Shown here: positions 8,804 through 22,640 of the stretch, in pieces
Numbering within the stretch: the stretch's first letter is position 1
Layout of the letters: each line of letters starts with the position of its first letter
From: a virus
Length of the DNA stretch: 22,825 nucleotides
Virus record (IMG/VR): IMGVR_UViG_3300036985_000410
Coordinates: 1-22,825 of that record
Strand: one strand, 5' to 3'
The notes under the pieces: model-generated
What the model was told of the DNA's origin: nothing
Seen by the model: the letters and a program-made list of their open reading frames with translations, nothing else
The model's database searches: none
Program-made: the position numbers and the translations under genes

Positions 8804-11254
8804 CTAGTAGTCTCCAACTTGGAACCTACCGGCTCCAGTAGTATTGTAACGAATAGTCCAGCCTAGCAACCAGCTATCCTTAGCCGTGCCAGCCGTGTAC
8901 TTCAGTGACAAAGCCCTACCCCTACCACGTACTTTATTACGGGTAACAACTAGGGTTTCACCATTGTCGAATGTGTCACCTACCCCAGTAGGGGTGTAGA
9001 GCCTACGGTGACGATATACCTGCTGGGCATTGCCCCATTTGCCACTGCTAGAACGGTCAGTCCAGTCCCACTGGGCTTGCATCAGGAGTGACGATTCCCC
9101 TGCCGGAACGAGGTCACCCGCCACATCCGTGTAGCCTGTCTCAGTCTTATTCTGGTAGACGGTAATGTAAGGGGCGTACTTACGGAACTGAGCATTGTCG
9201 GCAGTATCGTATCCCGTTACTAGGTAAGCCTCTTCCTCGGGCCTACCCCAGTCCTGATACGTAGTCCCACTAGTGTCTCCGATAGAGAGCTTGGTCAGGC
9301 CATCAGTGATACCCACAAACTTGATACGCTTGCTAGACCCCGTATCCCGCACGGCAAACAAGGAGGAGGTGTAAGACCCTACCTCTGCAACCGTGTTCTT
9401 GCCCAGTTTCCAAGGGGTAAATGCCCCGAACTGCATATTGAAAACTAGCACCCCATCATAGGTTCCGTTCGTCACGGCAGTTCTAGAATAGAGCCAAAAC
9501 ACCCGCTTCTCGATATCGTCGTAGGCAACCTGAGCACTCTGCTTGGAGGTGTACGGAACTTCCCGGTAGAAGTTATCTACCTTGCCTACTGTGATAGATT
9601 TGGGCGAGACAAACCCTGAGTTCTCATCTTGGGCAAGGCCATAAATGCCGCTAGTAGACCAGTACATTGGGATGTTTTCTGCAAGCACGATACTACCTGC
9701 TCCCGTGGAACCAACGTCCGACACCTTACGCACACTGTAGGACGTAGCCGTAAAGTACCCACTCTGACCTCCAGAGATAGCCCAAATACCATTAGACGCA
9801 AAGACAAGTAGGCTTCCAGAGTAAGCCATCAGGTAGTGAATGTTGGCAGCTTCTGGGATAACAATCACGCCACCGTCAGTATCAATCAAGTCAGAGATAT
9901 TCTGGTCAGTAGGGTCTGCTACTTGGTAGCACTTACCATACTGAGAGTCACCCTCGATAATCTGAGAGAAGAATATACGGGTAGAGAGTTTCTCGTGAGG
10001 AGTACCCGCAAACCACAACCGACCAGCGTAAAACTCTACGCACGTAGGACGGAAGTCAGTGGAGTAACCGTAAGGGTTATTTGCATACTGAGACTGGACA
10101 GTACCGTATGCACCGTACTGACTAATCCAACTCAGGAAGTAATCAGGAAAAGTAACTGAGATGGTGAGCTGGTTAACTGCGGGGGCAGTGACTACAGTTT
10201 GAGTACCGTTGAAGTCAAAGTTATTGTACAGGCCGTAGAAGCCACCATAGCCACTGTACGTAGCACTGTAGAGAGCATACTGCCCTGCTACCGTGAACGT
10301 ATTACCCGCAACCAATCCGTGGGCAGATGCGGTAGTGATGGTTATGGTCTGAGCACCAGCCGTAGTACCAGTAATAGTCCAGTTGATAATAGCAAAGTTA
10401 GAAACGCTATCAGGCAGAGCAATCTTATTAGTAGTAAATGGGTTACGGATGAAATGCCCAGTAGGTGCTGGAGCATCTTGGAATAACTCGGCAACTAACT
10501 TGTCTGGCGAAAACGCTTTAGTCCAATCCTGTTCGGCTACACCAGCTGTAGTGACACGACGATAGCCCAAGTAAGGAACCATGTTCTTTGAAGGATACTT
10601 ACTCTTACTAGTAAAATAAGTAGCAATGTCAGCCTTGAGCCAACCACGATTGTACAAGTTGTACTTGTGTCCATCCGTGGCAGATACTGGGGATGCCGTG
10701 TCGGTAATACCGTCAGTCACGCCCTCAAAGTCACGCTCCGTAATATCAATAAGAGTAGCAGTGAACACATCTGTTGTACTGTCGTACTTCACATAGAAAG
10801 GGTGAAGTAGTTTGTGGGTCACAAAGAAGTGACCACGCCCAAACCCTGCATCAATTGGCAGGGTAGGTAAGGTAGTACTGAGGCTAGTGTTAGTTAGATA
10901 GAGAGTTAGGTCGAGTACAAAGGACAACTTGCTACTGCCAACAGGTTGACCGTCCACATAGAAGTGTAGGTTAGGGCCATACTGGATAACAATGAAGTTG
11001 ACGTTAGGGTCACCCGCTACGTCGTTCCACTTAAAGCTACGAGTTACGTAGTTAGTATCTACAGAGTCAGGGTCATAGCCCCCTTCCGCATCTTCCTTTG
11101 CAATACCACGACGACGCCGACGAGTAGCATCCTTGAGAATCTCAAAGTTCTGCTCGTCAACGGAAAAGTTTTCTGGAAAAACCAAAGGGCTGGCGTCAGA
11201 GTTGAGGCCAGCCGCAAAGGTAAAGTACTCTTTATCAGAGCCTGATTTAGCCAC
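8804..11254 (-). CDS. Tail nozzle / tail tubular protein B (gp12-like)
   Basis: The 816-aa product is close to the length of T7 gp12 (794 aa). The N-terminal pattern FAAGLNSDASPLVFPENF followed by an N-F-E-I-L-x-D-x-x-R-R-R-R-R-G element (to about residue 50) is the recurrent start of podovirus tail nozzle or stabilisation proteins (G-L-N-x-x-A-S-P-L-x-F-P-E-N). The rest is beta-rich with many Tyr, Gly, Thr and Ser, as expected for a propeller-like tail tip, including YAGRLWFAGTPHEKLSTRIF at about 400. It starts with GTG 11254, overlaps the 89-aa gene by 8 bp and has AAGGAAAG 9 nt upstream. It is adjacent to the gp11-like adaptor cluster, with which it would form the short tail tube. Confidence 0.85.
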   Translation of the reverse strand: MAKSGSDKEYFTFAAGLNSDASPLVFPENFSVDEQNFEILKDATRRRRRGIAKEDAEGGYDPDSVDTNYVTRSFKWNDVAGDPNVNFIVIQYGPNLHFYVDGQPVGSSKLSFVLDLTLYLTNTSLSTTLPTLPIDAGFGRGHFFVTHKLLHPFYVKYDSTTDVFTATLIDITERDFEGVTDGITDTASPVSATDGHKYNLYNRGWLKADIATYFTSKSKYPSKNMVPYLGYRRVTTAGVAEQDWTKAFSPDKLVAELFQDAPAPTGHFIRNPFTTNKIALPDSVSNFAIINWTITGTTAGAQTITITTASAHGLVAGNTFTVAGQYALYSATYSGYGGFYGLYNNFDFNGTQTVVTAPAVNQLTISVTFPDYFLSWISQYGAYGTVQSQYANNPYGYSTDFRPTCVEFYAGRLWFAGTPHEKLSTRIFFSQIIEGDSQYGKCYQVADPTDQNISDLIDTDGGVIVIPEAANIHYLMAYSGSLLVFASNGIWAISGGQSGYFTATSYSVRKVSDVGSTGAGSIVLAENIPMYWSTSGIYGLAQDENSGFVSPKSITVGKVDNFYREVPYTSKQSAQVAYDDIEKRVFWLYSRTAVTNGTYDGVLVFNMQFGAFTPWKLGKNTVAEVGSYTSSLFAVRDTGSSKRIKFVGITDGLTKLSIGDTSGTTYQDWGRPEEEAYLVTGYDTADNAQFRKYAPYITVYQNKTETGYTDVAGDLVPAGESSLLMQAQWDWTDRSSSGKWGNAQQVYRHRRLYTPTGVGDTFDNGETLVVTRNKVRGRGRALSLKYTAGTAKDSWLLGWTIRYNTTGAGRFQVGDY

Positions 11255-11528: not shown

Positions 11529-12287
11529 TTAATTACGCTTTCGCCCAAAGTCTACCCAATCGTACTTCATATCTTCTCGCCACTTGTTACGCTGGGAACG
11601 AACCCGCGTGCGCTTTTCTAAACGGTCAATCATTGGATTCATCTGCTGCTTCACCACAGCCATGCACCGGTTCATTGCCGTGTTGTACAGCAAGTTGAAC
11701 ATATTCTCTGGCAGGTCTGCCGTAAAGTTATCAGTAAGAGTAAACACTGGGCGTTCTGCGCCGTAGCACATACTCTTACTAGTCTGCAAAGTAGAGTCTA
11801 CAGCTGAATTGTAACTGTCGAAGATAAACAACTGGTCATCAAAGCTAGTGTAAAACTGTGGAGCAGAATCTTTCTTAACGATAATATCAATGTTACTATC
11901 CAGTGCCACAGTCTGATATTGCACAGTGTCAGAGCCGTCACGTGCATTAACGTAGTCAATAAAATCTTCAGGCTTCATGTAGTGAATGATGGCATAGTCC
12001 CGAGCATCACCATTATCCAAACGGGTGTCGTACTTAATCCAGTAAATCTTAGACACATTATCAGGAAGACTCATATGTGAAGGTTTACTAGTATCACCAG
12101 AAGCTAGCAAGGAAAATAAAGTATTATTACAAGGTAGTTCCTTGTCATCAATAATTTCAAAGTAAATATCTTTTATAATTTTAGCAACTTGAGTGCTTTC
12201 GATAGTATCAGAGATAGAGTTTACTTCGTCAGAGTCCATAGTATTTAGAATACCTTGAACCATGTCTAAAAGTGTACGCTTAGTCAT
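11529..12287 (-). CDS. Head-tail adaptor / tail tubular protein A (gp11-like)
   Basis: The 252-aa product begins MTKRTLLDMVQGILNTMDSD, then has a helix with V-A-K-I-I-K-D-I-Y-F-E-I-I (about 33-46). A beta region follows with SHMSLPDNVSKIYWIKYD. Next is F-I-F-D-S-Y-N-S (about 154-160) and a C-terminal helical part ending RTRVRSQRNKWREDMKYDW. The layout is an N-terminal helix bundle, then L-P-x-x-V-x-x-I near 78, then a bent beta part, then a basic C-terminus. It is the usual one of podovirus tubular protein A (T7 gp11 is 196 aa), which forms the ring between portal and nozzle. Its ATG overlaps the tailspike stop as TAATG. Bases about 12120-12190 are conspicuously AT-rich compared with neighbours. 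Confidence 0.75.
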   Translation of the reverse strand: MTKRTLLDMVQGILNTMDSDEVNSISDTIESTQVAKIIKDIYFEIIDDKELPCNNTLFSLLASGDTSKPSHMSLPDNVSKIYWIKYDTRLDNGDARDYAIIHYMKPEDFIDYVNARDGSDTVQYQTVALDSNIDIIVKKDSAPQFYTSFDDQLFIFDSYNSAVDSTLQTSKSMCYGAERPVFTLTDNFTADLPENMFNLLYNTAMNRCMAVVKQQMNPMIDRLEKRTRVRSQRNKWREDMKYDWVDFGRKRN

Positions 12288-14569
12288 TAGTAGAACCCGA
12301 TAAATGGCAAACCGGTATTGCCACCAGCATTAGTTGGAACCCCATTTGTTAACGTAACGGTACTGGGAAGGGGGTCAGTTCCAGCAGTATAAGTTCCCGC
12401 GACGGTTGCATAACCAACCCGTCCAGTATAAATAAACGAAACAGTGCCTCCAAACAAACCGACGATGTCTCTGGCGATACCAAAAATCTGCGCGGAAGCG
12501 TTGTCAAATCCAACGCAAATCCAATCACCGGGACGGATGGTAACAGTAGTCCCCAGTGCTACCGTGTTGTATCCACTAACAACTGCAAAAGCTTTTCCAA
12601 AAACCTTTGTGCCGGTGTTTACTGCAAGAGCTTTACTATTAGTTGTAGAAGCCGTAGTTGCAGTTATTGAACTGCGATAAATACCAACAACAATATTTCC
12701 CGCCGCACTGTTGCAATGATAAAATGCGGTTGCTACTGAACTGCCAGCCTGAACTCGATACCAAACGCAACTATTTGCTGTAATTGGGGTATTATTAGAG
12801 TTTACAAAAATAGGGTCATAGGGAATAACGCCAAGGTCATTAGCTACCGTTTGAACCGTTGGACTCATGGGGTAGTTATCAAAGTTCTCTAGCCCACCAA
12901 TACCTCCACTAATCCGGAACGCAGTAAAGTTCCCGTATGGAACGGCGATAGGAGCAGTTGCAGTTTTTACTTCTATGCAATAAAGTGCTGTACCAGTAGC
13001 CCCCGTAGAGTCAATATTATCAAAGGTGCACTCCAGTCCAGAAGCATCTCCAAGTAATGGGATATAGACCATAGACTGTGGGCCGTAACTTAAACTAATA
13101 GCCGTTGTTACACCCGTTGCTAATCCCCCTGTCCAAGTAATGGACGCAGAGCCATTGGTAAACGTAGCCGTCTTGGTAGTCAGGTCACTAAACTGAATTG
13201 AGTAGGTTCCGCTAGCACCGGGCCATGTATAAATCATCGTCGCGCTAGTCGCACCAGCGGACAAAGCCCCTGTTAGGACTAAGCTCAGGTTATAGCCAAA
13301 GCACGTTTCGCCAGTAATGTTGGAAATTTTTGAAAATATAGGATTTGCAATACATAGCGCACCATATGAACCGCCGTAGGTAGATGTCCCACGGATTGCA
13401 GTTGCATACGTCGCACGCCCATTTCTTTGCGGAATCCAAATATTTCTACCACTGGGTGTGGTAGCAGCGGCAACCGAATTAAGTGGGTATAGGTAATTTG
13501 ATTTACCTACAGGATAGCTGCCAGTTGAACCACGGAAGATGGACTGCTGAAACCATGAGTCAAACCACGGATTAGGTGTTGCGCCGTCACGGATACGTCC
13601 GTCTTCATAGTCGTACATTACGCCATCAGTAAAAAAGTTGTCGGTGTTCTTATACGGATGATTAGTGCTATAGCAAGTTGCGCCACCAATGAACGTAGTA
13701 CCTGCACCGCCTCCGCCGCAGCCCGAGCCAATAAACTGCGGGTTATGTGTACCTTGATAGGCAAAGAATCCTACGTTACAATTTTCCCAAAACACATAAT
13801 GAAATATTGGGAAATTCCACGCTAAACACTTGGACACCATACCAAAGCGAAAACCAGACAGATGGAGGTCTCTAAACTCCAACCCATCAGCCGTATTTAA
13901 ATACGACGGTTTACTGTCAATAAAACACGCGCCAGCCGTCTGACCTGCTACGTCATTGTCAGCGGGAACAGTAGGAACACTATTAGTAATGCGGTTATAG
14001 CCAGTAATAGGCCCAGTAAGCGTGGCTCCTTGCCCAACAATACGTACCCAATCTTGGAGAATAATAGAAGTTCTGATGCGATAGTTCTTACCCGGAGTGA
14101 GACGTAGCTCAACCACCGAATAAGTTCCTCCTGCAACAGCAATAGCATTTGCTGCTACGTAAGCAGCAGAAATAGCAGGGCCATCATCCGTAGTACCGTC
14201 ACCAACTGCGCCAAAGTCATCAACGTAGAGAATATTCTTTAGTCTATCTTCAACAGTAGTAGCAACAGTTCCTGCGTAGGGAGCAGTGTAGGTAACAGTA
14301 CTAGCATCACTTGGCCCACCTACAAAAATTAAACTATCTGCGTATGCTTTAGTAGCAGGTTCAGAATTACTAGTAGGAGTAGGGAGATTTAGAATGCGAT
14401 TTGAATTCATATCCAAGTCAGCATTCATAGAATTAGGAGAAGTCCCATCTCGGGACAAGGTGTTCTCTAGGGCCGTCTCAATGAGGGCCGCATTATTATT
14501 GATAACACTTTCTGCGCTGGTAGGATTTCCAGACAGATTAGCTACATCAGCAAGGGTGAGCTTTGCCAT
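12287..14569 (-). CDS. Tailspike with pectate-lyase-like beta-helix domain
   Basis: This 760-aa receptor-binding protein has an N-terminal anchor (residues 1-65, MAKLTLADVA to LDMNSNRILNLP) nearly the same as that of the 291-aa fibre protein. A short linker follows, then YVDDFGAVGDGTTDDGPAIS at 115-134. The D-F-G-A-x-G-D-G-x-T-D-D motif marks the start of pectate-lyase/tailspike beta-helices that usually bind or cleave capsular or O-antigen polysaccharide. The middle is Gly/Thr/Asn-rich and beta-like. Catalytic residues and glycan specificity cannot be read from sequence. The C-terminus (about 600-760) looks like a separate beta domain ending GLPFIGFY. It starts after the terminator and overlaps the adaptor gene by 1 bp. 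The ribosome site is weak (GGTGGA). Spikes of this kind are frequently swapped between phages. Confidence 0.85.
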   Translation of the reverse strand: MAKLTLADVANLSGNPTSAESVINNNAALIETALENTLSRDGTSPNSMNADLDMNSNRILNLPTPTSNSEPATKAYADSLIFVGGPSDASTVTYTAPYAGTVATTVEDRLKNILYVDDFGAVGDGTTDDGPAISAAYVAANAIAVAGGTYSVVELRLTPGKNYRIRTSIILQDWVRIVGQGATLTGPITGYNRITNSVPTVPADNDVAGQTAGACFIDSKPSYLNTADGLEFRDLHLSGFRFGMVSKCLAWNFPIFHYVFWENCNVGFFAYQGTHNPQFIGSGCGGGGAGTTFIGGATCYSTNHPYKNTDNFFTDGVMYDYEDGRIRDGATPNPWFDSWFQQSIFRGSTGSYPVGKSNYLYPLNSVAAATTPSGRNIWIPQRNGRATYATAIRGTSTYGGSYGALCIANPIFSKISNITGETCFGYNLSLVLTGALSAGATSATMIYTWPGASGTYSIQFSDLTTKTATFTNGSASITWTGGLATGVTTAISLSYGPQSMVYIPLLGDASGLECTFDNIDSTGATGTALYCIEVKTATAPIAVPYGNFTAFRISGGIGGLENFDNYPMSPTVQTVANDLGVIPYDPIFVNSNNTPITANSCVWYRVQAGSSVATAFYHCNSAAGNIVVGIYRSSITATTASTTNSKALAVNTGTKVFGKAFAVVSGYNTVALGTTVTIRPGDWICVGFDNASAQIFGIARDIVGLFGGTVSFIYTGRVGYATVAGTYTAGTDPLPSTVTLTNGVPTNAGGNTGLPFIGFY

Positions 14570-14599
14570 TAAAAGGATTCCACCAGTCTTGATAAGATT

Positions 14600-14634
14600 A
14601 AAAAGTAAAAGGTTAGGGGAGGTTTCCCTCCCCC
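14600..14634 (-). terminator. Intrinsic terminator after the capsid genes
   Basis: In the 80-bp gap on the minus strand, GGGGAGG pairs with CCTCCCC around a GAAA tetraloop. A longer imperfect pairing, GGCTAGGG-AGG with CCTCCCCTAACC, is also possible. The T-rich run TTTTACTTTTT follows about 4-6 nt after the stem. This is a good rho-independent terminator layout, placed right after the capsid and decoration genes and before the tailspike. T7 keeps its late terminator at the corresponding place after gene 10. Confidence 0.8.
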
Positions 14635-14649
14635 TCCCTAGCCGTCTAC

Positions 14650-15141
14650 TTAGACAGCACCGACATCGCGGTAGGTCACACGAACCACCAAGCGACCAGC
14701 AGCCGTGATGGTCGGGCTAGTACCCGAGAGCGTCACGTTGATGGTAGCAGCGGCAGTCAACGGCGTGTTAGCCGCCAACGTACCAGCCGAAGCAATCGAA
14801 TAGCTAGCCACAGCCTCGGCCTGACCCTCGGAGATGGTGCAAAGACGATTGGTTGCTTCACTCGTGGAAACGCCAATGTTGAAGGCTGGAGTCGTGCCGC
14901 CGAGCACGAACGCTTCAACAACTTCCACCTGAGCATTGCCGTGAACGGCAGCACCAATAGGAAGCGTCAAGTTGGCGTTACCCGTGTAGAGACCACCAGA
15001 AAAGTCCGAGCCAAGGAGAGTGAAAGCCACTTCCTTGAACGAACCAACAGCACCCGTTTCAGCAAAGCCAGCCTCTTCGTCGGCAACTCGCGTACCGTAG
15101 TGATTGCGGAGGCCGTCCGCATTCGAGAAGATAGTACCCAT
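14650..15141 (-). CDS. Probable capsid decoration / head-associated protein (163 aa)
   Basis: The product begins MGTIFSNADGLRNHYGTR and has an acidic patch at about 21-28. The body is beta-rich and dominated by Ala, Thr, Gly, Ser and Val, and the protein ends RLVVRVTYRDVGAV. It has no signal peptide, membrane segment or cysteine cluster apart from one Cys (about residue 101). The position immediately after the major capsid gene, the strong AGAGGT ribosome site 8 nt before ATG 15141 and C-rich codon use like the capsid gene all point to an abundant structural protein. A decoration or capsid-stabilising role is the most likely reading; a minor head-tail protein is possible. I do not know a named family. 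The gene is followed by the terminator. Confidence 0.65.
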   Translation of the reverse strand: MGTIFSNADGLRNHYGTRVADEEAGFAETGAVGSFKEVAFTLLGSDFSGGLYTGNANLTLPIGAAVHGNAQVEVVEAFVLGGTTPAFNIGVSTSEATNRLCTISEGQAEAVASYSIASAGTLAANTPLTAAATINVTLSGTSPTITAAGRLVVRVTYRDVGAV

Positions 15142-15149
15142 TTTAATTT

Positions 15150-15169
15150 ACCTCTTTAATTACTAGTAA
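15150..15169 (-). promoter_or_regulatory. Ribosome site plus TTACTAGTAA palindrome before the 163-aa gene
   Basis: In the 47-bp gap after the capsid gene, a perfect 10-bp palindrome TTACTAGTAA (15160-15169) lies just upstream of AGAGGT (15150-15155). That ribosome site is 8 nt from ATG 15141. The palindrome recurs at 1929 and 10605. No promoter is evident here. Confidence 0.45.
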
Positions 15170-15188
15170 GGAAAAGAAACCGTGACCG

Positions 15189-16163
15189 TTAGGCCACGAT
15201 GTCCTTGTCCGAAAGAACAACCACGAGGTTTTCCGGGCGGTACACCTTGAGGCCGTAACGAGCAGTCGTCACGTACTCTTCGCGCTGGAAGTCCTTGTTG
15301 TAGTCCGTGTCAACTTCCGGAGCCTGACGCCAAGCACCGACGAACGGCATCAGCTCAGGGGAAGCCAGCGACATGAACAGGTTGCAAACGCCCTGCGTGT
15401 TGGTAGCCACCGAAGAGATGGTTTCCGAAGCAGCTGCCGGGAGGTAGTTGCTCGTGTACACATCGAAGCCGTAGATGTTCTTAACGAAACGACGGCCCGA
15501 AGCGATACCACTCGTGATGACGCCTTCCCACATCGGGTTGTTGCTGACGTTGGTCAGGTTCGTGATGGTGTTGATGGCGTACTCGACCGAGGGGTCAACG
15601 ATAGCGACGAGGTTAACGTCGGGCACGTTGGCCTTCTTGAGCGAGTGAAGAGCACGAGCAAAGTCCTGCACACCAAGAGTCTGGCGCGAAGCAGTCGTGG
15701 TCGAGCCAACAAAGCGGTGAGCCGCACCGTTGATAGCATTGATGCTAGCAGCAGTCTGACCACCCGAAGCACCAGCAGCACCAAGAGCCAGAACGTCCGT
15801 CTCAAGCTTTTCCATGATGGCACGGGCCTGCTTGGGAACGAAGCTCGACACCAACTCGTTCATGTAGAACATATCCTGCATCGCCTTCTTGGTGATGTAG
15901 GTTGCGCTCGACACGTACTGGTTGATGGTGAACGTGAAGTTACCAGTGTCAAGGTTGTCATAGACAACAGCCTGACTTTCGCTGTAGTTACGAACCGGCA
16001 GTTCGCCAATCGACGGGATGTTGAAGGTGTCGCCATCGGGGAAGTCCGTCAGCCAACGCACATAGCCCTGAGCCATAAGTTCGTCCAACAGGACATCCTT
16101 AAGCTGAGTGCTCCAGACCTGAGAACGGCGCAGTTGAGCCGTATTAGCAGTAGTATGAGACAT
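15189..16163 (-). CDS. Major capsid protein
   Basis: The 324-aa product has the features of HK97-fold podovirus capsid proteins. It starts with a helix including SQVWSTQLKDVLLDELM (residues 14-30). DFPDGDTFNIPSIGELPVRN follows (about 40-59), and DTGNFTFTINQYVSSATYIT (about 72-91) gives the beta strand and P-domain layout. A long spine helix covers SFVPKQARAIMEKLETDVLA. The C-terminus has VTTARYGLKVYRPENLVVVL. The D-F-P-D-G-D-T-x-N-I-P-S-I-G signature is shared with many marine and freshwater podovirus capsid proteins I recall, and not with T7 gp10. A strong AGAGGT site (16171-16176) sits 7 nt before ATG 16163. The gene is C-rich in codon use, as expected for high expression. It follows scaffold and precedes the decoration candidate. 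Confidence 0.92.
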   Translation of the reverse strand: MSHTTANTAQLRRSQVWSTQLKDVLLDELMAQGYVRWLTDFPDGDTFNIPSIGELPVRNYSESQAVVYDNLDTGNFTFTINQYVSSATYITKKAMQDMFYMNELVSSFVPKQARAIMEKLETDVLALGAAGASGGQTAASINAINGAAHRFVGSTTTASRQTLGVQDFARALHSLKKANVPDVNLVAIVDPSVEYAINTITNLTNVSNNPMWEGVITSGIASGRRFVKNIYGFDVYTSNYLPAAASETISSVATNTQGVCNLFMSLASPELMPFVGAWRQAPEVDTDYNKDFQREEYVTTARYGLKVYRPENLVVVLSDKDIVA

Positions 16164-16191
16164 TTAGATTACCTCTATTTATTGTGGTGTA

Positions 16192-16950
16192 TTACGAATC
16201 CCAACGCTCACCGAGAGCACTCATGTCATTGTGCATCTGAACCTGAACCGAACGGTCAAGGATAAACTTCTTTACCCCCATGTTCTTCTTCAAGTTCTCG
16301 TAGTAGGCTGCGTTACGAACAGAATTGTTCGACGGGTTGTTACCCAATACGGCAGCACTATTTCGTGCAGACACTGGTGCACCAGTTACGTTGGTCTGGC
16401 TATCCTCACCGATGAGGCGAGAGAAAGCCTTAGGATTACGGCGAGCCATATCGACCAACATAGCCTTGTCCATTCCGAGTTCCGAGGCACGGCTAGAAAG
16501 GACTTCATCAGTCTTTTCACCGTACTTCTTAGCCAGAGTATTCAAAGCTTGCTGTTCGTTAGCTGCCATTCGACGCTGCTCTTCAACAGCGTGTACAATC
16601 TTAACCACATCTTCGGCACTGATAGCCTTAGCCATAACGTCTGGAGTGGTTACCGAGACGGGGCTTGGGGCGGCAGGCTGGTTACTGCTCTCGTCCTCAG
16701 ATTTGGTAACGGAAGCTAGAAGTCGTTCAATTGCACTGGTCATGTGAGTAGTCCTTTCAGATTCTTTTACAAGTTTACGAAGAGCGTCATTCTCGTCTTT
16801 CAACTTATCAATGAAGCGGTCTGCTTCGAGTTTGCTCTTTGCTAAATCGTCAACACTTTTGAACTTCTTTCCGTCTCCTACTAGTTCTTGTAGCGGGTCT
16901 GCTACAGGAGTAATAGGTGCTCCGTTGTCAGGGATAGTTTCGTCGGTCAT
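16192..16950 (-). CDS. Capsid assembly scaffolding protein
   Basis: The 252-aa product is acidic at the N-terminus (MTDETIPDNG) and has the element GKKFKSVDDLAKSKLEADRF (27-46), leading into a coiled-coil helix to about 67. The K-F-K-S-V-D-D-L-A-K-x-K-x-E-A-D motif is typical of podovirus scaffolds. A Ser/Pro-rich linker (about 82-105) and a second helical region with EEQRRMAANEQQALNTLAKK follow. A basic C-terminal segment (YENLKKNMGVKKFILDRSVQ, about 217-236) is suited to binding capsid protein. It sits between portal and capsid, as usual. Residue Met70 (16743) is preceded by AAAGGA 8 nt upstream, so a shorter nested product is possible. No protease motif is seen. The main start has only a weak ribosome site. 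Confidence 0.8.
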   Translation of the reverse strand: MTDETIPDNGAPITPVADPLQELVGDGKKFKSVDDLAKSKLEADRFIDKLKDENDALRKLVKESERTTHMTSAIERLLASVTKSEDESSNQPAAPSPVSVTTPDVMAKAISAEDVVKIVHAVEEQRRMAANEQQALNTLAKKYGEKTDEVLSSRASELGMDKAMLVDMARRNPKAFSRLIGEDSQTNVTGAPVSARNSAAVLGNNPSNNSVRNAAYYENLKKNMGVKKFILDRSVQVQMHNDMSALGERWDS

Positions 16951-16960
16951 TTAGGGGTCT

Positions 16961-16975
16961 TGCCCTTAAAGGGCA
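16961..16975 (-). repeat. Palindrome at the 80-aa gene stop, before the scaffold start
   Basis: TGCCCTT and AAGGGCA flank one central base, spanning the stop codon of the 80-aa gene (16966-16968) and ending 11 nt before the scaffold ATG. As RNA this can fold as a 5-bp stem with a 5-nt loop and would cover the AAGG nearest the scaffold start. It may tune scaffold translation; no T-tract follows, so it is not a terminator. Confidence 0.4.
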
Positions 16976-17208
16976 CTCCTTACGAGTCGTTGTAGTTCCT
17001 TAAGAGCTTCAGTCCTACCGTTAAGGTGGGCCTGTTTGTATCCCCAAGAGGGAGTCTCATAGTCGGAACTGTTGACTGTGAGACTATCTTTAATCTTTCT
17101 TTCCAGTAATAAATCAATTAACTCTAGCGTAGGCGTACTGGCTTTTAGTAGTTCTCCGGTCTTCTTATGGTCTTTAGAGCCGTAGAACCATTCAGTCGAA
17201 ATTGGCAC
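16966..17208 (-). CDS. Hypothetical protein between portal and scaffold (80 aa)
   Basis: This is a small polar protein beginning MPISTEWFYGSKDHKKTGEL. It has a helical mid-part (TPTLELIDLLLERKIKDSL) and a C-terminus with GYKQAHLNGRTEALKELQRL. There is no membrane segment, cysteine or known motif. It starts with GTG 17208, 2 bp after the portal stop (the portal ends in a GGACAG context that can serve as a weak ribosome site), and stops 15 bp before the scaffold gene. Podoviruses often carry a short gene in this position whose product has no assigned role. A head-assembly helper is plausible from location only. Confidence 0.7.
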   Translation of the reverse strand: MPISTEWFYGSKDHKKTGELLKASTPTLELIDLLLERKIKDSLTVNSSDYETPSWGYKQAHLNGRTEALKELQRLVRSAL

Positions 17209-17210
17209 GG

Positions 17211-19013
17211 TTACTGTCCTTGCTGCTGCTGTTCCATCATGGCTTGGGTTTCTGCCTCAATCGTCATTGGGTCAGTAGGAGTCATGGACTCCACCTGTAG
17301 ATTATCTTGGATAGCCATCTGGGTACGCTGGGAATCAGCCTGTTCAAGCAGACGTACATCCTTAGAGAACAGACCATAGCCCGTGAGACCAAGGTTCTCT
17401 TCCATCAACTGGGCAATCTTCATACCCGACAAGTGAGCCTGTACCGCAGGGTCTTGGTAGATAGCACTACCAGCCAACTGCGTCAGGTTCTGAACCAACT
17501 GAGCCTTCATCGCAAAGTGCCGAGCACCTTTTGGATTGAGGCGTCCAGCAGGAGCCAAATCATCCTTAGTAATAGTAAGGAAAATTTGAACCCCATAATC
17601 ATCGTCAATAGCGCGAGCAATGTCAGTACCGTCAAGATTCCGAGCAGCAACTTCCAACATTGAGTTAAGTAGTGGCTCAAGGAAATGTTTTTCAAAGTAG
17701 TTAATCTTGCTTTGGAAGATTCGACCTGCCGCGTTCTCCAACGTCTGTACTTCATATGCAGTCTTCTCACCCGGAGTACGGATACCCATTGCTTGCTTAG
17801 GTGCGCCAGCCATCTCCTCCATCTCGTCCTCTAGCATACGGATTTGCATATCCGCATTGAGGGCGGTAGTCTCAGGGACTAGCATAGTTACGTCACCTTC
17901 CTCACCTAGGAAGATACGAGCACCCGGCTCCCAATCAAAGTCCTCAACTTCACCCTTGACCTTAACGACAGGGAAAGCAATGAGGTCAAATACGTCAGCC
18001 TTCAGATTCTCTAGGTGGTCAATGCGATACTGCATACCAACCAGATTGTCCAATGGCCCCATCGCCCAGAGATTGTCAGGGCGTCCACGCCAGCCAACGT
18101 GTTCCTTATAGGAACGTCCGTGCCAGCTATTGATAGTACCGTTGTAGGCTACGTGCATACGGTCAACAACCACAATCTTCCAGTTCTCGTAGAGCACCTG
18201 ACTGTTAACGTCGAACCAGTCGCCTTCAAACTCTAGGACTTCGACCAAGCCACTGTCCAAGTACTCACGGATGTTACCAAAGCCGTCAGCCACAAAGCCT
18301 TCGTCCTTGATAGTGTCCGTGGTTTCCCAAGTACGGCAGGTGTTACGGAGGTCGATAACCTTCTGGAAAGCCTCAGAGTAGCTAACCATTTCAGGATAGC
18401 TACGTACCAACTTAGCAAGGTCACCCAAGCTGTAGAGCTTACGGACTATCTTAGGGCTATTACGGAACGAGTCCGCAGTAGGGTCAAAGCACATATCGAG
18501 GGGAGAGATACGCTCCAACCGAGGGCCGACGTACACATCTACTAGACCATCAGGTGTATTGGCCCGTTCTGCCACATACTGGACATCTGCAAAGCAATTG
18601 CCGTAGTCGATGTAGTCCAGAACTAGGCGGGATACTTCCTGCTCGAACTGGCTATTAGACAACTTGGTGGCAATGTAGGCTTTGATAGCCTGAGCCTTAT
18701 CGTAGTCAGCCGAGTTCTCGTTAGCAGGAACCCAGTCAAACCACTTATCGTTAGGGAACAGAGCAGCCATGTAGTTAGCATGGAGGTTGTCCCGAATCTG
18801 GCAAATCTTAGGACGGGTAGTCTTGTTCTTCCAAGGAAGAGAGCTGTTACTAGTCGTCGTCGTGTCCGTAGCAAAGACGTAGTTACGTAACTCTGCCCAG
18901 TCCTTCATCTTCTTATCACGGGCCTTAGACCACTGAGTCCAGTTATTAGTAACCGCAATGGCCTTGTCGTCTGGCGACATCTCACTGCGGATATTGATAG
19001 TACGCTTAGGCAT
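17211..19013 (-). CDS. Portal (head-tail connector) protein
   Basis: The 600-aa product is expected to form the dodecameric portal at one capsid vertex. Conserved-looking parts are the N-terminal helical region WTQWSKARDKKMKDWAELRN (25-44) and PWKNKTTRPKICQIRDNLHA (60-79). After these come YMAALFPNDKWFDW (about 81-94), DYIDYGNCFADV (133-144) and RISPLDMCFDPTADSF (168-183). The long portal-type helical segment runs around IRMLEDEMEEMAGAPKQAMG and TAYEVQTLENAAGRIFQSKI. A Met/Gln-rich tail (MMEQQQQGQ) ends the protein. This matches the portal family of podoviruses with large (about 550-750 aa) connectors. ATG 19013 has AAAGGT (19019-19024) 5 nt upstream. It follows the large terminase by 16 bp, the canonical order. 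Confidence 0.9.
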   Translation of the reverse strand: MPKRTINIRSEMSPDDKAIAVTNNWTQWSKARDKKMKDWAELRNYVFATDTTTTSNSSLPWKNKTTRPKICQIRDNLHANYMAALFPNDKWFDWVPANENSADYDKAQAIKAYIATKLSNSQFEQEVSRLVLDYIDYGNCFADVQYVAERANTPDGLVDVYVGPRLERISPLDMCFDPTADSFRNSPKIVRKLYSLGDLAKLVRSYPEMVSYSEAFQKVIDLRNTCRTWETTDTIKDEGFVADGFGNIREYLDSGLVEVLEFEGDWFDVNSQVLYENWKIVVVDRMHVAYNGTINSWHGRSYKEHVGWRGRPDNLWAMGPLDNLVGMQYRIDHLENLKADVFDLIAFPVVKVKGEVEDFDWEPGARIFLGEEGDVTMLVPETTALNADMQIRMLEDEMEEMAGAPKQAMGIRTPGEKTAYEVQTLENAAGRIFQSKINYFEKHFLEPLLNSMLEVAARNLDGTDIARAIDDDYGVQIFLTITKDDLAPAGRLNPKGARHFAMKAQLVQNLTQLAGSAIYQDPAVQAHLSGMKIAQLMEENLGLTGYGLFSKDVRLLEQADSQRTQMAIQDNLQVESMTPTDPMTIEAETQAMMEQQQQGQ

Positions 19014-19029
19014 TTGTTACCTTTAAGAA

Positions 19030-20586
19030 TTAAGCACTGATGCCGCCGAAGCGACTGTGATAAACCACATTAGACTTACGCTCTGTCCGCATGAACTTAT
19101 TAGAAGGTGGCGTAGCAATCTCTACACACGAAGCCAAGGCATCTTTAAGGTCGTCGTGAGCAGGATGTCTCTGAAGAATTTCTTCTTCCAATATCTGACA
19201 GTTGCCACCACGATAGTGCCACATAGCTAGGTTGTCGTATCGCGGTTGAAGGATAGCCCTCACTCGCTCTTCTTTAGTACCCATGTGCCTAGTGGGGTAG
19301 TACTCTTCAATAGAAAGAGCTAGTCCCGCTGGCTTGATATACATATCTCGAATCTCTCGAATGACCGCAGCTTGGGCTACAACCATTTCTGCACGAAGCT
19401 TTCGGAAGTTCCACTTAACGTGCAAGTCACGAATACGTGTATAGCATTCCGACATCTTTTCAGTCTTAAATCGGTCAATGTCTAAGACGTATATATTACT
19501 TTCGGGGTCTACACCTACTACTACAATTGCAGTGTAGTCACTGCGTAGTTTAATAGAGAAGGCCAAGTCAATAGACGCATAGACATTTAGAGGACGACCA
19601 CCAATAAACCATCTACCACTATTTACTGATAAGACAGACTTATCGTAGTACTGAAACTTATTAGCAGTAATATCCGAATCTTCGTATACGTTAGGGTCAT
19701 TGTAGTACTGGGCATAGAACTGAGTCTTGTCCAAGTACTGCGCTTTCTTACGGGATAAGATTGGCGCATCAAACCCAAACCACTTACCGTCTGACCGTTG
19801 TTGACGGGGCCAGAGGAATTCCCCAGTACCGTCTCCACGATTCTCTACCTTACGTTCAAATACTTCGTAGACTTCTACTTCATCTACTACATTACCGTCT
19901 ACGTCAAAGACTTCCTGCTTCATCTCTAGTAGTTCGTGATACAAATCCTTAGGATGGTATCGAGTCCCTACTGTCCACTCCTTTGCGTCAGCACCTTCGA
20001 TAGATGCCAGCAAGGAGTACTGAGTCTTTACCTTCTCCCGGCCTTCGTTAGTGTAGGCATTCTCCTGCACCACAACGTCGTCCAGTACGGCAATGTCACA
20101 GTGGAGACCAGTCAAGCTGGTAGTCAATCCACCCGTGAATACCGTAGGGTCTCGGATTCCTTCTTCCTTACGCTTAGGATGGTCAATCGCAATTTCAGAG
20201 TTAGTCCACTTAGCTCGCTTACCCTCATCTGCATTAACCATCTCAGGCCAGAGTAAGCTGTAGTTAGGGCTAGTGATAATGGCCTTAATAGCCCCTAACT
20301 GTTTTTCTGCCAAGTTTGCTGTCGAAGAAATGTAAAGAACACGGGTTGTCGGATTACGAGTTATCTCCCAAGCTACCCGAAACGCAACCATTGCACTCTT
20401 GGCATGGTCACGGGGTAGCAAGGTTAACTGGTGACTGTGTGCATCTGAACGAGTCCACCACCCAATCAACTCTTTATGTAAATGGCCTAGAAGACGATAA
20501 GGAGCTACAACCTTAATAAAGGTTTCTAGGTCTTCCTCACAAGCCTCTCGTAATTCTAGTTCCTTAGAAGTAGGTTTACGTGCCAC
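19030..20586 (-). CDS. terL: Terminase large subunit (packaging ATPase and nuclease)
   Basis: The 518-aa product contains an ATPase with an atypical Walker A, LLPRDHAKS (56-64, Lys63), and Walker B, IAVLDD (165-170), with the catalytic acidic residue near D170. The coupling motif EWTVGTRYHP (203-212) follows. The C-terminal RNase H-like nuclease shows YASIDLAFS (Asp340), IYVLDIDRF (Asp369/Asp371) and the last acidic cluster HDDLKDALA (Asp478/Asp479). The enzyme drives DNA into the prohead and cuts the concatemer. Length and motif order are as in podovirus large terminases (T7 gp19 is 586 aa). It starts with GTG 20586 overlapping terS by 11 bp, so it is likely translationally coupled. The portal gene follows directly. 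Confidence 0.95.
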   Translation of the reverse strand: MARKPTSKELELREACEEDLETFIKVVAPYRLLGHLHKELIGWWTRSDAHSHQLTLLPRDHAKSAMVAFRVAWEITRNPTTRVLYISSTANLAEKQLGAIKAIITSPNYSLLWPEMVNADEGKRAKWTNSEIAIDHPKRKEEGIRDPTVFTGGLTTSLTGLHCDIAVLDDVVVQENAYTNEGREKVKTQYSLLASIEGADAKEWTVGTRYHPKDLYHELLEMKQEVFDVDGNVVDEVEVYEVFERKVENRGDGTGEFLWPRQQRSDGKWFGFDAPILSRKKAQYLDKTQFYAQYYNDPNVYEDSDITANKFQYYDKSVLSVNSGRWFIGGRPLNVYASIDLAFSIKLRSDYTAIVVVGVDPESNIYVLDIDRFKTEKMSECYTRIRDLHVKWNFRKLRAEMVVAQAAVIREIRDMYIKPAGLALSIEEYYPTRHMGTKEERVRAILQPRYDNLAMWHYRGGNCQILEEEILQRHPAHDDLKDALASCVEIATPPSNKFMRTERKSNVVYHSRFGGISA

Positions 20587-21070
20587 TCTTTACACTCTTC
20601 CAAATAGCGGTGACCTTACTAGCACGGACATCATCTTGTTCCTCATTGCCATGCTTTGGGCGACCACGCTTGGCCTTACTAGACTCTTTCCACTTCTCTT
20701 CAGACAACCACTTGGTTGCTGTCAACTTCTCAGCAGCAGTGCCACTATTCTGAATCACCGCAGCAGTACTGTAGTTAATATATTGCAGCTGAAGGTCTCG
20801 TTCCTTGCGCCACTGTTCTGCGTGTTCCTTGAACCAAGTAGCCTTGCAAAGATTCTCCCAGCAGAGGTACGAGCCAAATATACTCTTGGCAAAGTTAAAC
20901 TCAGTTGGGTCGAGGTAGTCCATATACTTACGCTTCAAAGAAATGTAAGTACCCTTGTCCTCTTCGGCAAGCGTAAAGATAGGAGCATACTTTCCATCTG
21001 TGTCGTTGGTCTCGACAAACAGAGCACTGGTCAGCCAGCGATTGCTGGAGTCTTTAAAAGGATTCACCAC
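20576..21070 (-). CDS. terS: Terminase small subunit
   Basis: The 164-aa product lies directly upstream of terL and overlaps it. Its N-terminal part is polar. Residues 40-60 (TYISLKRKYMDYLDPTEFNF) and 61-98 form a helical DNA-recognition-like region with two cysteines (70, 75). The C-terminal part is helical. A basic AT-hook-like element KRGRPKHG (134-141) is followed by an acidic tail, a pattern frequent in small terminases of podoviruses. TerS recognises the packaging site and loads TerL. Start: two adjacent GTG codons (21068-21070 and 21065-21067), preceded by AAGGTGA; it overlaps the 92-aa gene by 7 bp. The terminase identity rests on position and the tail motif more than on the N-terminal domain. 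Confidence 0.82.
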   Translation of the reverse strand: MVNPFKDSSNRWLTSALFVETNDTDGKYAPIFTLAEEDKGTYISLKRKYMDYLDPTEFNFAKSIFGSYLCWENLCKATWFKEHAEQWRKERDLQLQYINYSTAAVIQNSGTAAEKLTATKWLSEEKWKESSKAKRGRPKHGNEEQDDVRASKVTAIWKSVKSGT

Positions 21071-21342
21071 TTCACCTTGTCAGCCCAGTAAGCTGCGCTC
21101 AATTTACCCTTCGATATATTACCAGCGTGACGGGCCTTAAAAGATTCTCGACGATTCTTATAGGACTCACTTTCACCCTTTTTCTTAGGGGAACCTGAGA
21201 CACCCTGTTGCCCAAATCGGATAGTCTTAACTTGCTCACCAACCTTAGCCACAACTACGTGGCTCTTGGTAGGATGGCTAGGAGTCTTCTTAGGCTTGTT
21301 AAAGCCACTAACTCCTGCTCGGTCTAGTCTAGGGTCTTTCAT
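21064..21342 (-). CDS. Conserved basic phage protein (92 aa), function unknown
   Basis: The protein starts MKDPRLDRAGVSGFNKPKKT and has SHPTKSHVVVAKVGEQVKTI (22-41), the motif RFGQQGVSGSP (42-52) and a basic stretch with ESYKNRRESFKARHAGNI (about 59-76). It ends SAAYWADKVKW. The combination of the A-G-V-x-G-x-N-K-P-K start, I-R-F-G-Q-Q-G-V and the A-A-Y-W-A-D-K-V-K-W end is one I recognise as strongly conserved among small proteins of marine and freshwater phages, with no known function. It is very basic and could bind nucleic acid. It sits between fibre-type genes and the terminases, starts 2 bp after its neighbour and overlaps terS by 7 bp. Confidence 0.75.
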   Translation of the reverse strand: MKDPRLDRAGVSGFNKPKKTPSHPTKSHVVVAKVGEQVKTIRFGQQGVSGSPKKKGESESYKNRRESFKARHAGNISKGKLSAAYWADKVKW

Positions 21343-21344
21343 AG

Positions 21345-21764
21345 TTATGCCCCACTAAATACTTCTGCGGTTAGAGTTACGGCAGACGATGTAAAGACTT
21401 GCCCAGTAGCATTGCTTCTAATCTCTAGTGTTCCTTCTGCGGTAGACTCTCCACCGGGGGCTGTTCCTGCTTGGCTCACTGACCAAGTAGGGCTTGAGCT
21501 AGGGCCGACCCAGACACCAGTAGAAGCACCACCAATAGACCCAGAGACTACTGTCATCCTAAATTGGTAATCAGCAGCTCCACCACCAATAGCCCAAGTG
21601 CCCGAGACGCTATTAGTATTGCCAACACTTGTGTACGTACCAGCAGCGTTTATAGTCAAACTTGCTAGCGCACCATTAGGTACAGTATCGGTATCCCAAA
21701 TCAACATATCAGCAGGAAGAGTTGCGGAAATACCACCTCCAGTAAGTAGCATTTGCTGCATCAT
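21345..21764 (-). CDS. Beta-rich, probable fibre-associated virion protein (139 aa)
   Basis: ATG follows the stop of the fibre gene without a gap (TAAATGATG), so the two are almost certainly co-translated; the second ATG is an equally possible start. After MMQQMLLTGGG the body is Ser/Thr/Gly/Val-rich. It contains LTINAAGTYTSVG, GTWAIGGGAADYQFRM, TWSVSQAGTAPGGES and GTLEIRSNATGQVFTSSAVT, which looks like a chain of beta strands in an Ig-like or lectin-like fold. Similar beta-sandwich proteins with a G-T-W-x-x-G near the middle and a G-T-x-E-I-R near the end occur next to phage fibres. A receptor-binding tip, chaperone or virion surface role is inference; no catalytic motif is seen. Confidence 0.6.
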   Translation of the reverse strand: MMQQMLLTGGGISATLPADMLIWDTDTVPNGALASLTINAAGTYTSVGNTNSVSGTWAIGGGAADYQFRMTVVSGSIGGASTGVWVGPSSSPTWSVSQAGTAPGGESTAEGTLEIRSNATGQVFTSSAVTLTAEVFSGA

Positions 21765-22640
21765 TTAGGTAACGCCTGAGCCACTGATGAGCCAGCTAGC
21801 CGTACCGATACGCACTAGGGTAGCAAGACCCCTAGTAGCAAAGTTGCGATTAGTAGCAGTACCACCTACTGCTCCTCCTGCAATAAAAAGAGTTACGCCA
21901 GTAGGACAAGTAATAACTACTGAACTAGCATTAGTATTACAGATACTAACAGCAGCTCCGTTAGCGAATGCCGCATCAGTTGCGGTAGTAGGGATAGTAA
22001 ATCCACCAGTACTACTGTTGATAATCAACTTGCCACGGTCAGCACTAGTAATAGGGTAGGAAGCAGACGCAGCAACAGCTACAATATCACGATATCCTAC
22101 ATCATTGCTAGAAATCTGAAGGCCAACAGTGAAGTTACTAGTAGCATCTTTCAGAGCTACGTTGCTAGGCAATCGAGCAGCAGCTAACGTACCACTACCA
22201 ATGTTAGTTGCATTAATACTAGTAAGATTTAGACCACTAACTGCTGGAAGAGTTGCAGGGAATCGGGCATCAGGGACAGTACCACTAGTTAGGTTGGTAG
22301 CATTGAGGCCCGAAGCCCCCGTCAGAACAATCGAATAGATTAGATTTGTGCCATCGCTAACTAGACCTTTACCAGTTTGGCCTACTGGACTAGGCGCAGC
22401 TTGGAAAGTGTATCCACCTGTAATATCAATAAGACGCGCAGCATCAGTATTAGCTACAGGTGCAGCAAGATTAGTAATCTTATTACTATTCATATCTAGT
22501 TCAGCATTCATCATATTAGGGCTAGTGCCATCACGTGACAAAGTATTTTCAAGTGCTGTTTCAATAGCAGCATTGTTATCATTAATCCTAGTTACAGAGG
22601 CATAACCTGCTGCAATATCATTAAGTGTAAGTTTAGCCAT
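21765..22640 (-). CDS. Short tail fibre-like protein sharing the tailspike anchor
   Basis: Of 291 residues, 1-60 form the anchor module (MAKLTLNDIA to LDMNSNKITNLAAP), which matches the tailspike N-terminus almost residue for residue over NNAA-IETALENTLSRDGTSPN. The middle (about 112-160) holds two imperfect repeats of N-A-T-N-x-x-S-G-T-x-x-x-A-R-x-P (NLTSGTVPDARFPATLP and NIGSGTLAAARLP), typical of trimeric tail-fibre shafts. The C-terminal domain (190-291) is beta-rich and ends RGLATLVRIGTASWLISGSG, a common fibre C-terminal pattern. It therefore probably attaches to the tail and forms a short fibre. No enzymatic domain is present. ATG 22640 has AGGA about 11 nt upstream. It is followed without a gap by the 139-aa gene. 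Confidence 0.78.
   Translation of the reverse strand: MAKLTLNDIAAGYASVTRINDNNAAIETALENTLSRDGTSPNMMNAELDMNSNKITNLAAPVANTDAARLIDITGGYTFQAAPSPVGQTGKGLVSDGTNLIYSIVLTGASGLNATNLTSGTVPDARFPATLPAVSGLNLTSINATNIGSGTLAAARLPSNVALKDATSNFTVGLQISSNDVGYRDIVAVAASASYPITSADRGKLIINSSTGGFTIPTTATDAAFANGAAVSICNTNASSVVITCPTGVTLFIAGGAVGGTATNRNFATRGLATLVRIGTASWLISGSGVT

Follow-up and report, generated by a model that had tools for sequence, protein, structure and literature searches.

Most descriptions of podophages give them one fibre type, or a second receptor-binding protein (RBP) that hangs from the first. The Klebsiella phages KP32 and KP34 and the coliphage G7C are podophages with two RBPs, often including a depolymerase, of which only the first has an anchor, while Kuravirus SU10, a podophage with a gp11-type adaptor and a nozzle, has two fibre types on two separate docks. 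Whether phages with surplus tail fibre genes tend to have an unusual tail hub is a question raised in a study of phage GT1 (PMC10386132). Here we analyse a virus record of 22,825 bases (IMG/VR record IMGVR_UViG_3300036985_000410; this whole stretch is called the window below), which holds the structural (virion) half of a podophage without the replication arm. Its tailspike of 760 amino acids (aa) and its fibre of 291 aa both begin with a variant of one anchor module. Unlike KP32, KP34 and G7C, both RBPs thus carry an anchor, and unlike SU10 they use variants of the same one. Judged from its sequence, the window appears to encode two independently anchored RBPs of one anchor family in one podophage; no dual-anchor podophage was described in the titles and abstracts returned by our literature searches, whose coverage left out most subscription papers.

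The nearest parallel is Vibrio phage ICP2, where gp25 (tail fibre) and gp14 (hypothetical) occupy the same two gene positions and have the module at both N-termini. Mutations in gp25 change host range, as stated in a review. ICP2 differs from the window in that both of its copies are type I-like (subtypes are defined below) and gp25 contains a collagen-like stretch; a pectate-lyase body was found in neither gp25 nor gp14. The second described relative is the T7-type anchor (PF03906; T7 gp17, P-SCSP1u gp28, Peru-2 P2_41), which resembles the window in the segment after its jelly roll and in a T7 gp11-fold adaptor with a dock domain, but differs in having the jelly roll itself, which the window module lacks.

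The anchor module and its two subtypes

A first-pass annotation, made by a model from the letters alone, had claimed that the tailspike and the fibre share an N-terminal module although their genes lie over 7 kb apart, that the rest of the proteins is unrelated and that the pair is not a recent copy. Each of these points is borne out. Both open reading frames (ORFs) were found (Table 1), 7.2 kb apart. They share a module of 66-70 residues, with 44 of 66 aligned residues identical, that includes the MAKLTL start, an identical 16-residue block, ETALENTLSRDGTSPN, and a MNA-x-LDMNSN block. Their best local alignment scores 220, compared with a mean of 58 (standard deviation 8, maximum 87) in 500 shuffles of the fibre, whereas outside the module the score of 59 is at chance level. 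In the 66 aligned codons 124 of 198 bases are equal, and in a 75-codon alignment 48 residues are equal but the same codon is used in only 22 of them; since codon usage differs at the shared residues, and the copies sit on different branches of the family, the pair is not a recent copy. The tailspike module has a four-residue insertion after position 18, which goes with a different subtype (type II).

The interpretation of the module as a virion anchor gains support from three sides: it stands N-terminally ahead of many unrelated bodies, T7-type fibre anchors contain a helix-plus-LDMN segment to which it aligns, and the tailspike body occurs behind a different N-terminus in another phage. The predicted module (predicted local distance difference test score, pLDDT, 77.7) has an extended stretch, a helix at 16-37 and a further extended part, with no strand. 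When compared by hhalign with an alignment of two PF03906-matching proteins, module residues 23-78 matched T7-type anchor residues 104-160 (probability 91.9%, E 7e-7), a segment with the helix and LDMN..NL element that sits just after the jelly roll; for the jelly roll itself, neither the tailspike nor the fibre gave a PF03906 match at E up to 1. A profile search of the PDB with the module returned weak matches to the LDMN half only, the best being a GCN4-fused putative inner membrane protein (E 0.005), with phage fibres at E 0.015 and up, and a fold search with the module gave nothing below E 0.5.

The body behind the tailspike module may be pectate-lyase-like, as suggested by a PF12708 match (5.7e-5, 23.4 bits) that lies below the curated cut-off of 27. 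It had no match in the phage collection and none in eight related records, the latter in a search without a positive control. The fibre body gave partial matches only, in 11 records. In a different kind of phage (L023, 3602-5659; L-numbers are our labels for loci of related phages), a protein 75% identical to tailspike residues 109-760 has a quite different N-terminus with matches to phrog_8859 and to the baseplate wedge/tail fibre connector phrog_677, and the sequences indicate that the body was swapped between anchors. The near-identical phages L033 (1399-1863) and L273 (1458-3941) encode at the same place module proteins of 155 and 828 aa, respectively, in which the body appears to have been replaced behind the first codons of the anchor.

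A search for other users of the module, by tblastn with two module queries in 50,697 phage records, found it to be widespread, with 54 and 63 records, most often of phages of Vibrio, the Roseobacter group and Pseudoalteromonas and of metagenomic phages from oysters. A hidden Markov model (HMM) of the module run over 215 loci gave 111 matches, 99 of them at the N-terminus of a protein. The 12 others include L002 and L184, which have no start codon at the expected place, and L007 and L008, where the match follows a T7-type domain; most of the remaining ones cover mainly the LDMN half. Counting records shared between searches once, 69 of 82 distinct whole records have at least one module match and 13 have at least two genes with a match, one of these second matches being weak (E 3e-4).

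Unique N-terminal copies number 100 in 329 loci, and there are two main locations: site 1, beside the terminase genes, and site 2, between capsid and tail adaptor, where we also count copies that follow the capsid in loci ending short of the adaptor. We defined type II by a motif like ..NL.NE.SAV.. together with three to four extra residues before the helix, and type I, itself mixed, as every other copy; the subtypes were defined after inspection of the sequences, and gene order served to assign positions. At site 1 there are 64 copies, and the type II motif is absent from all of them, whether judged by rule or by eye, also from the two (one of L089, one of L279) with a similarly long spacer. 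At site 2, type II applies by rule to 20 of 27 copies, and to 22-23 when calls by eye are added: of the seven outside the rule, two (L312 and L316) belong to type II by eye, one (the second copy of L148) is ambiguous, and four (L293, L137, ICP2 and VP41s3) are type I-like. Type I also covers the other nine copies (seven unplaced, two after the adaptor). Under a looser rule used earlier on the first 80 copies, the site-1 copy of L179 had counted as type II, which by eye it is not.

Within the examined loci, both sites are filled only in the window, ICP2 and VP41s3, and type I occurs together with type II only in the window. No type I copy was found in any of the eight searched type II records of at least 40 kb (L149, L153, L154, L183, L148, L067, L085, L316), which suggests that the two types are alternatives for one role.

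Some proteins, all at site 1, are little more than the module (L052, L054 and L069, 97 aa; L132, 122 aa; L227, 114 aa) and are possibly stand-alone anchors for a separately encoded fibre. The records of L186, L279 and L317 each have a second copy that lies at neither usual site and is separated from the first by several kilobases, which suggests a third position for module genes.

Descent of the copies and probable block exchange relative to a sister phage

Each of the two window copies groups with same-site copies of other phages, which indicates that the pair did not arise by copying within this genome. In the module tree, which has 66 columns and is poorly resolved, the site-2 label requires 5 changes as against 20 in shuffles, a value as low being reached in 0 of 500. 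The fibre module pairs with that of the sister phage L001 (SH-aLRT, an approximate likelihood-ratio support, 88), while the tailspike module falls in a branch of nine site-2 copies and one site-1 copy (support 93), its closest relative being the site-2 copy of L149, at 76%. A recent gene duplication inside the genome was rejected on these groupings and on the differing codons. We also considered gene conversion between the two modules, given that the fibre module agrees with the tailspike module against that of L001 at 10 of 66 positions, but the tree placement and the general consensus of the family explain this agreement better, leaving gene conversion less likely.

L001 is about 92% identical to the window and has the fibre (ortholog at L001:3398-4270, 90% identical, syntenic with ICP2 gp25) but no tailspike. 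The tailspike, syntenic with ICP2 gp14, is missing at the corresponding place in L001, where only a short spacer separates the decoration gene from the adaptor. Among 13 genes compared, nucleotide identity is 90.7-98.8% in nine; it is 88% in the fibre gene (69-77% in its first 75 codons), 86% in the 139-aa ORF, 71% in the decoration gene and 69% in the adaptor gene. The decoration protein is 72% identical to that of L001, compared with 93% for the capsid. Along the adaptor protein, identity is 72-80% over residues 1-50, 48-68% over 51-175 and 96-100% over 201-252, so that the exchanged part comprises the first helices and the beta domain and the retained part is the C-terminal end. Silent sites have diverged as well: 14 of 32 fourfold sites are equal in the adaptor and 16 of 25 in the fibre module, versus 111 of 133 in the rest of the fibre. 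This silent-site divergence looks like an exchange of homologous blocks and not like fast selection.

We propose that a decoration-tailspike-adaptor block was replaced by homologous exchange, either bringing the tailspike in or removing it from the sister; the tailspike would then travel together with that part of the adaptor which bears the dock. A quick tree of 110 adaptors places the window adaptor as sister to that of L001, among genomes with type I or no seen module, and the nine other adaptors of type II genomes elsewhere (3 changes of the label vs 9.1 in shuffles); by this placement the window looks like a type I lineage holding a type II spike. The tailspike is an accessory gene and an exchangeable add-on. 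Its ORF is intact, and its stop codon overlaps the adaptor start codon (TAATG), which makes it probable that it is read with the structural operon. At the level of sequence, we regard the shared family, the subtype that follows position, the separate descent and the accessory nature of the tailspike as established.

Proposed docking on the tail

The likeliest reading, which we favour with some reserve, is that both proteins form trimers that dock where adaptor and nozzle join, with about six docks shared between them. The fibre and the tailspike would both be attached to the tail through members of a single small anchor family, consisting of an extended N-terminus, one helix and an LDMN...NL..P element, and corresponding to the T7-type fibre anchor minus its jelly roll. 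Each protein would form a homotrimer whose module docks where the 12-mer adaptor meets the 6-mer nozzle; we infer this docking from the homology to T7-type anchors, the N-terminal place before unrelated bodies and the body swap of L023. In P-SCSP1u, fibre trimers are held between adaptor and nozzle docks, six per tail, and in Peru-2 they are likewise held between adaptor and nozzle docks. Because related structures have six such docks, the two proteins would share them or compete for them, and the competition or mixed occupancy proposed in the first-pass annotation is plausible. Particles would carry a mixture of the two, in which the pectate-lyase-like tailspike might bind or cut a surface polysaccharide and the short fibre might bind another receptor.

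The adaptor itself is predicted to have a gp11/gp4-type fold with the fibre-dock domain that is absent in P22 and Sf6. In its AlphaFold2 model (pLDDT 86.5) a beta domain spans about 55-178, and a fold search (VIA-align) gave Z 15.5 to cyanophage A4, 12.7 to P-SCSP1u and 12.6 to T7 (6r21, 174 residues). Between 158 and 207 adaptor residues align to T7-type podophage adaptors (T7, KP32, P-SCSP1u, A4), compared with only 102-110 for P22/Sf6 (Z 10.3-11.3); the SU10 paper states that the adaptors of these two phages have no fibre dock domain. A profile search with the adaptor by sequence returned nothing relevant.

If the module docks on the adaptor, the two might co-vary. Across 32 genomes, module distances correlated with those of the N-terminal part of the adaptor after the mean of portal, capsid and nozzle was accounted for (partial r 0.34, p 0.001), and they did so in 22 genomes with site-1 modules only (partial r 0.45, p 0.001). 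In 39 pooled genomes, controlling for portal, capsid and the large terminase (TerL), the partial r was 0.37 (p 0.001), with comparison values of 0.00 for portal, 0.03 for capsid and -0.10 for TerL. Seven sister pairs were compared, all with portals of at least 97% identity and without duplicate loci from the same contig. The adaptor N-part has diverged in two of them, window/L001 and L289/L205, both with diverged modules; in the five pairs with a conserved adaptor, modules diverged in L132/L119 and L033/L273 and not in L201/L204, L018/L019 or L289/L301.

Several observations weigh against docking at a shared junction. In the 19 new genomes taken alone, the partial r for the adaptor or its parts was 0.04-0.14 (p 0.16-0.38), below the capsid at 0.20 (p 0.08), and of the 42 control windows taken from TerL, portal or capsid, 6 equalled the module. 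A gradient first noticed along the nozzle did not hold up when the set was enlarged, and nozzle segments were inconsistent between sets. The pair L033/L273 has module divergence without adaptor divergence, the phage is known here from a 22.8-kb DNA fragment, and the split of subtypes by site could mean two different docks. The co-variation was strong in the first panels but, as it did not replicate in the new genomes, we rejected it as proof of docking and keep it as a hint.

The possibility of two docks leads to the main rival, which we consider unlikely but worth weighing: the proteins would use separate docks, with both in every virion as in SU10. The site-1 fibre would sit on the adaptor and the site-2 tailspike on the nozzle, or each in the other's place, and the subtype would be an address. 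SU10 has six long fibres on its adaptor and six short ones on its nozzle, type II closely follows gene position, and the copies at each site are kept apart in ICP2 and VP41s3. However, homology between the subtypes extends from end to end, both sites of ICP2 and of VP41s3 are occupied by type I-like copies, and the absence of type I from all eight near-complete type II records is what one-dock alternatives would predict.

Far less probable is an arrangement like that of KP34 or G7C, in which the short fibre would be a tail-bound adapter, the tailspike would hang from it or from another protein, and the tailspike module would serve for trimerisation. The fibre, at 291 aa, is close to the 307-aa truncated first RBP of KP34, and relatives have whole module proteins of 97-198 aa. 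In those phages, however, the second RBP has no anchor and the first has a T4 gp10-like domain, whereas here both are anchored, and the eight near-complete type II records are all without a type I partner. Pfam and PHROGs found no T4 gp10-like branching domain in either protein, although HMMs can miss such a domain. With an anchor on each of the two proteins, the branched arrangement suggested in the first-pass annotation is not supported. It is just as improbable that only one protein is used at a time or in this host, the other being spare or poorly expressed in a transient state of RBP replacement: the sister phage has the fibre only and the two types meet only in the window, but both ORFs are intact and the tailspike stop overlaps the adaptor start.

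Building on docking at a shared junction, we offer a more tentative idea, possible though on balance doubtful. Types I and II may be alternative, normally exclusive keys to the same six docks, so that a phage with both would have a variable RBP mixture in its virions; decoration-tailspike-adaptor blocks might then be host-range cassettes that carry a spike with its own dock half, the resident fibre anchor being exchanged to match.

Gene neighbourhood and implications

On the minus strand, from 22640 down, the window encodes the fibre, a 139-aa ORF, a 92-aa ORF, the small and large terminases, the portal, an 80-aa ORF, the scaffold, the capsid, a 163-aa decoration-type protein, the tailspike, the tail adaptor, an 89-aa ORF, the nozzle and internal virion proteins. 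This order is collinear with ICP2 (L017) and with Pseudoalteromonas phage RIO-1 (L019), both of which are Zobellviridae in their records, and several gene names were assigned by position against these two; 'decoration' is a label given from the gene's place after the capsid. The portal is 47-51% identical to the best listed phage records. From structural gene order and portal similarity, the phage is best described as Zobellviridae-like. Only 185 bases of the window remain upstream of the fibre gene, so further fibre genes may lie outside it.

Table 1. Positions of the RBP genes, their modules and associated tail genes in the window
Feature	Coordinates	Strand	Evidence
Tail fibre, 291 aa, site 1 (upstream of terminase genes)	21765..22640	-	PHROG tail fibre match at N-terminus, phrog_17587 5.3e-9
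Type I anchor module of fibre, residues 1-66	22443..22640	-	Profile match 22383-22640, E 4e-36 (profile includes this copy)
Tailspike, 760 aa, site 2 (decoration protein/tail adaptor interval)	12287..14569	-	PHROG tail spike 4.5e-8, residues 73-174
Type II anchor module of tailspike, residues 1-70	14360..14569	-	Profile match 14327-14569, E 1.8e-32 (profile includes this copy)
Tail adaptor, T7 gp11/P22 gp4 fold (predicted)	11529..12287	-	Predicted beta domain ~55-178 at the place of the fibre dock
Tail nozzle, gp12-like, proposed second half of dock	8804..11254	-	phrog_8094 tail appendage 6.9e-148; position as ICP2 gp9
Decoration-type protein, 163 aa, left edge of exchanged tract	14650..15141	-	phrog_18422 2.7e-22, function unknown
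139-aa ORF directly after fibre, possibly part of fibre	21345..21764	-	88% identical in L001

The 139-aa ORF has no PHROGs or Pfam match, and its divergence from L001 is strongest at its C-terminal end. Notes in the RIO-1 record describe its nozzle gene (29108-33239) as divided into two parts by inserted genes, unlike the window, where it is a single gene.

In ICP2, the gene for gp14 (12658-14286), annotated as hypothetical, carries the module between capsid and adaptor. The finding thus points to gp14 as a likely second tail fibre of ICP2, judging by its sequence, and two anchored RBPs whose anchor subtype is tied to gene position would provide a testable model for how short-tailed phages may carry several RBPs.

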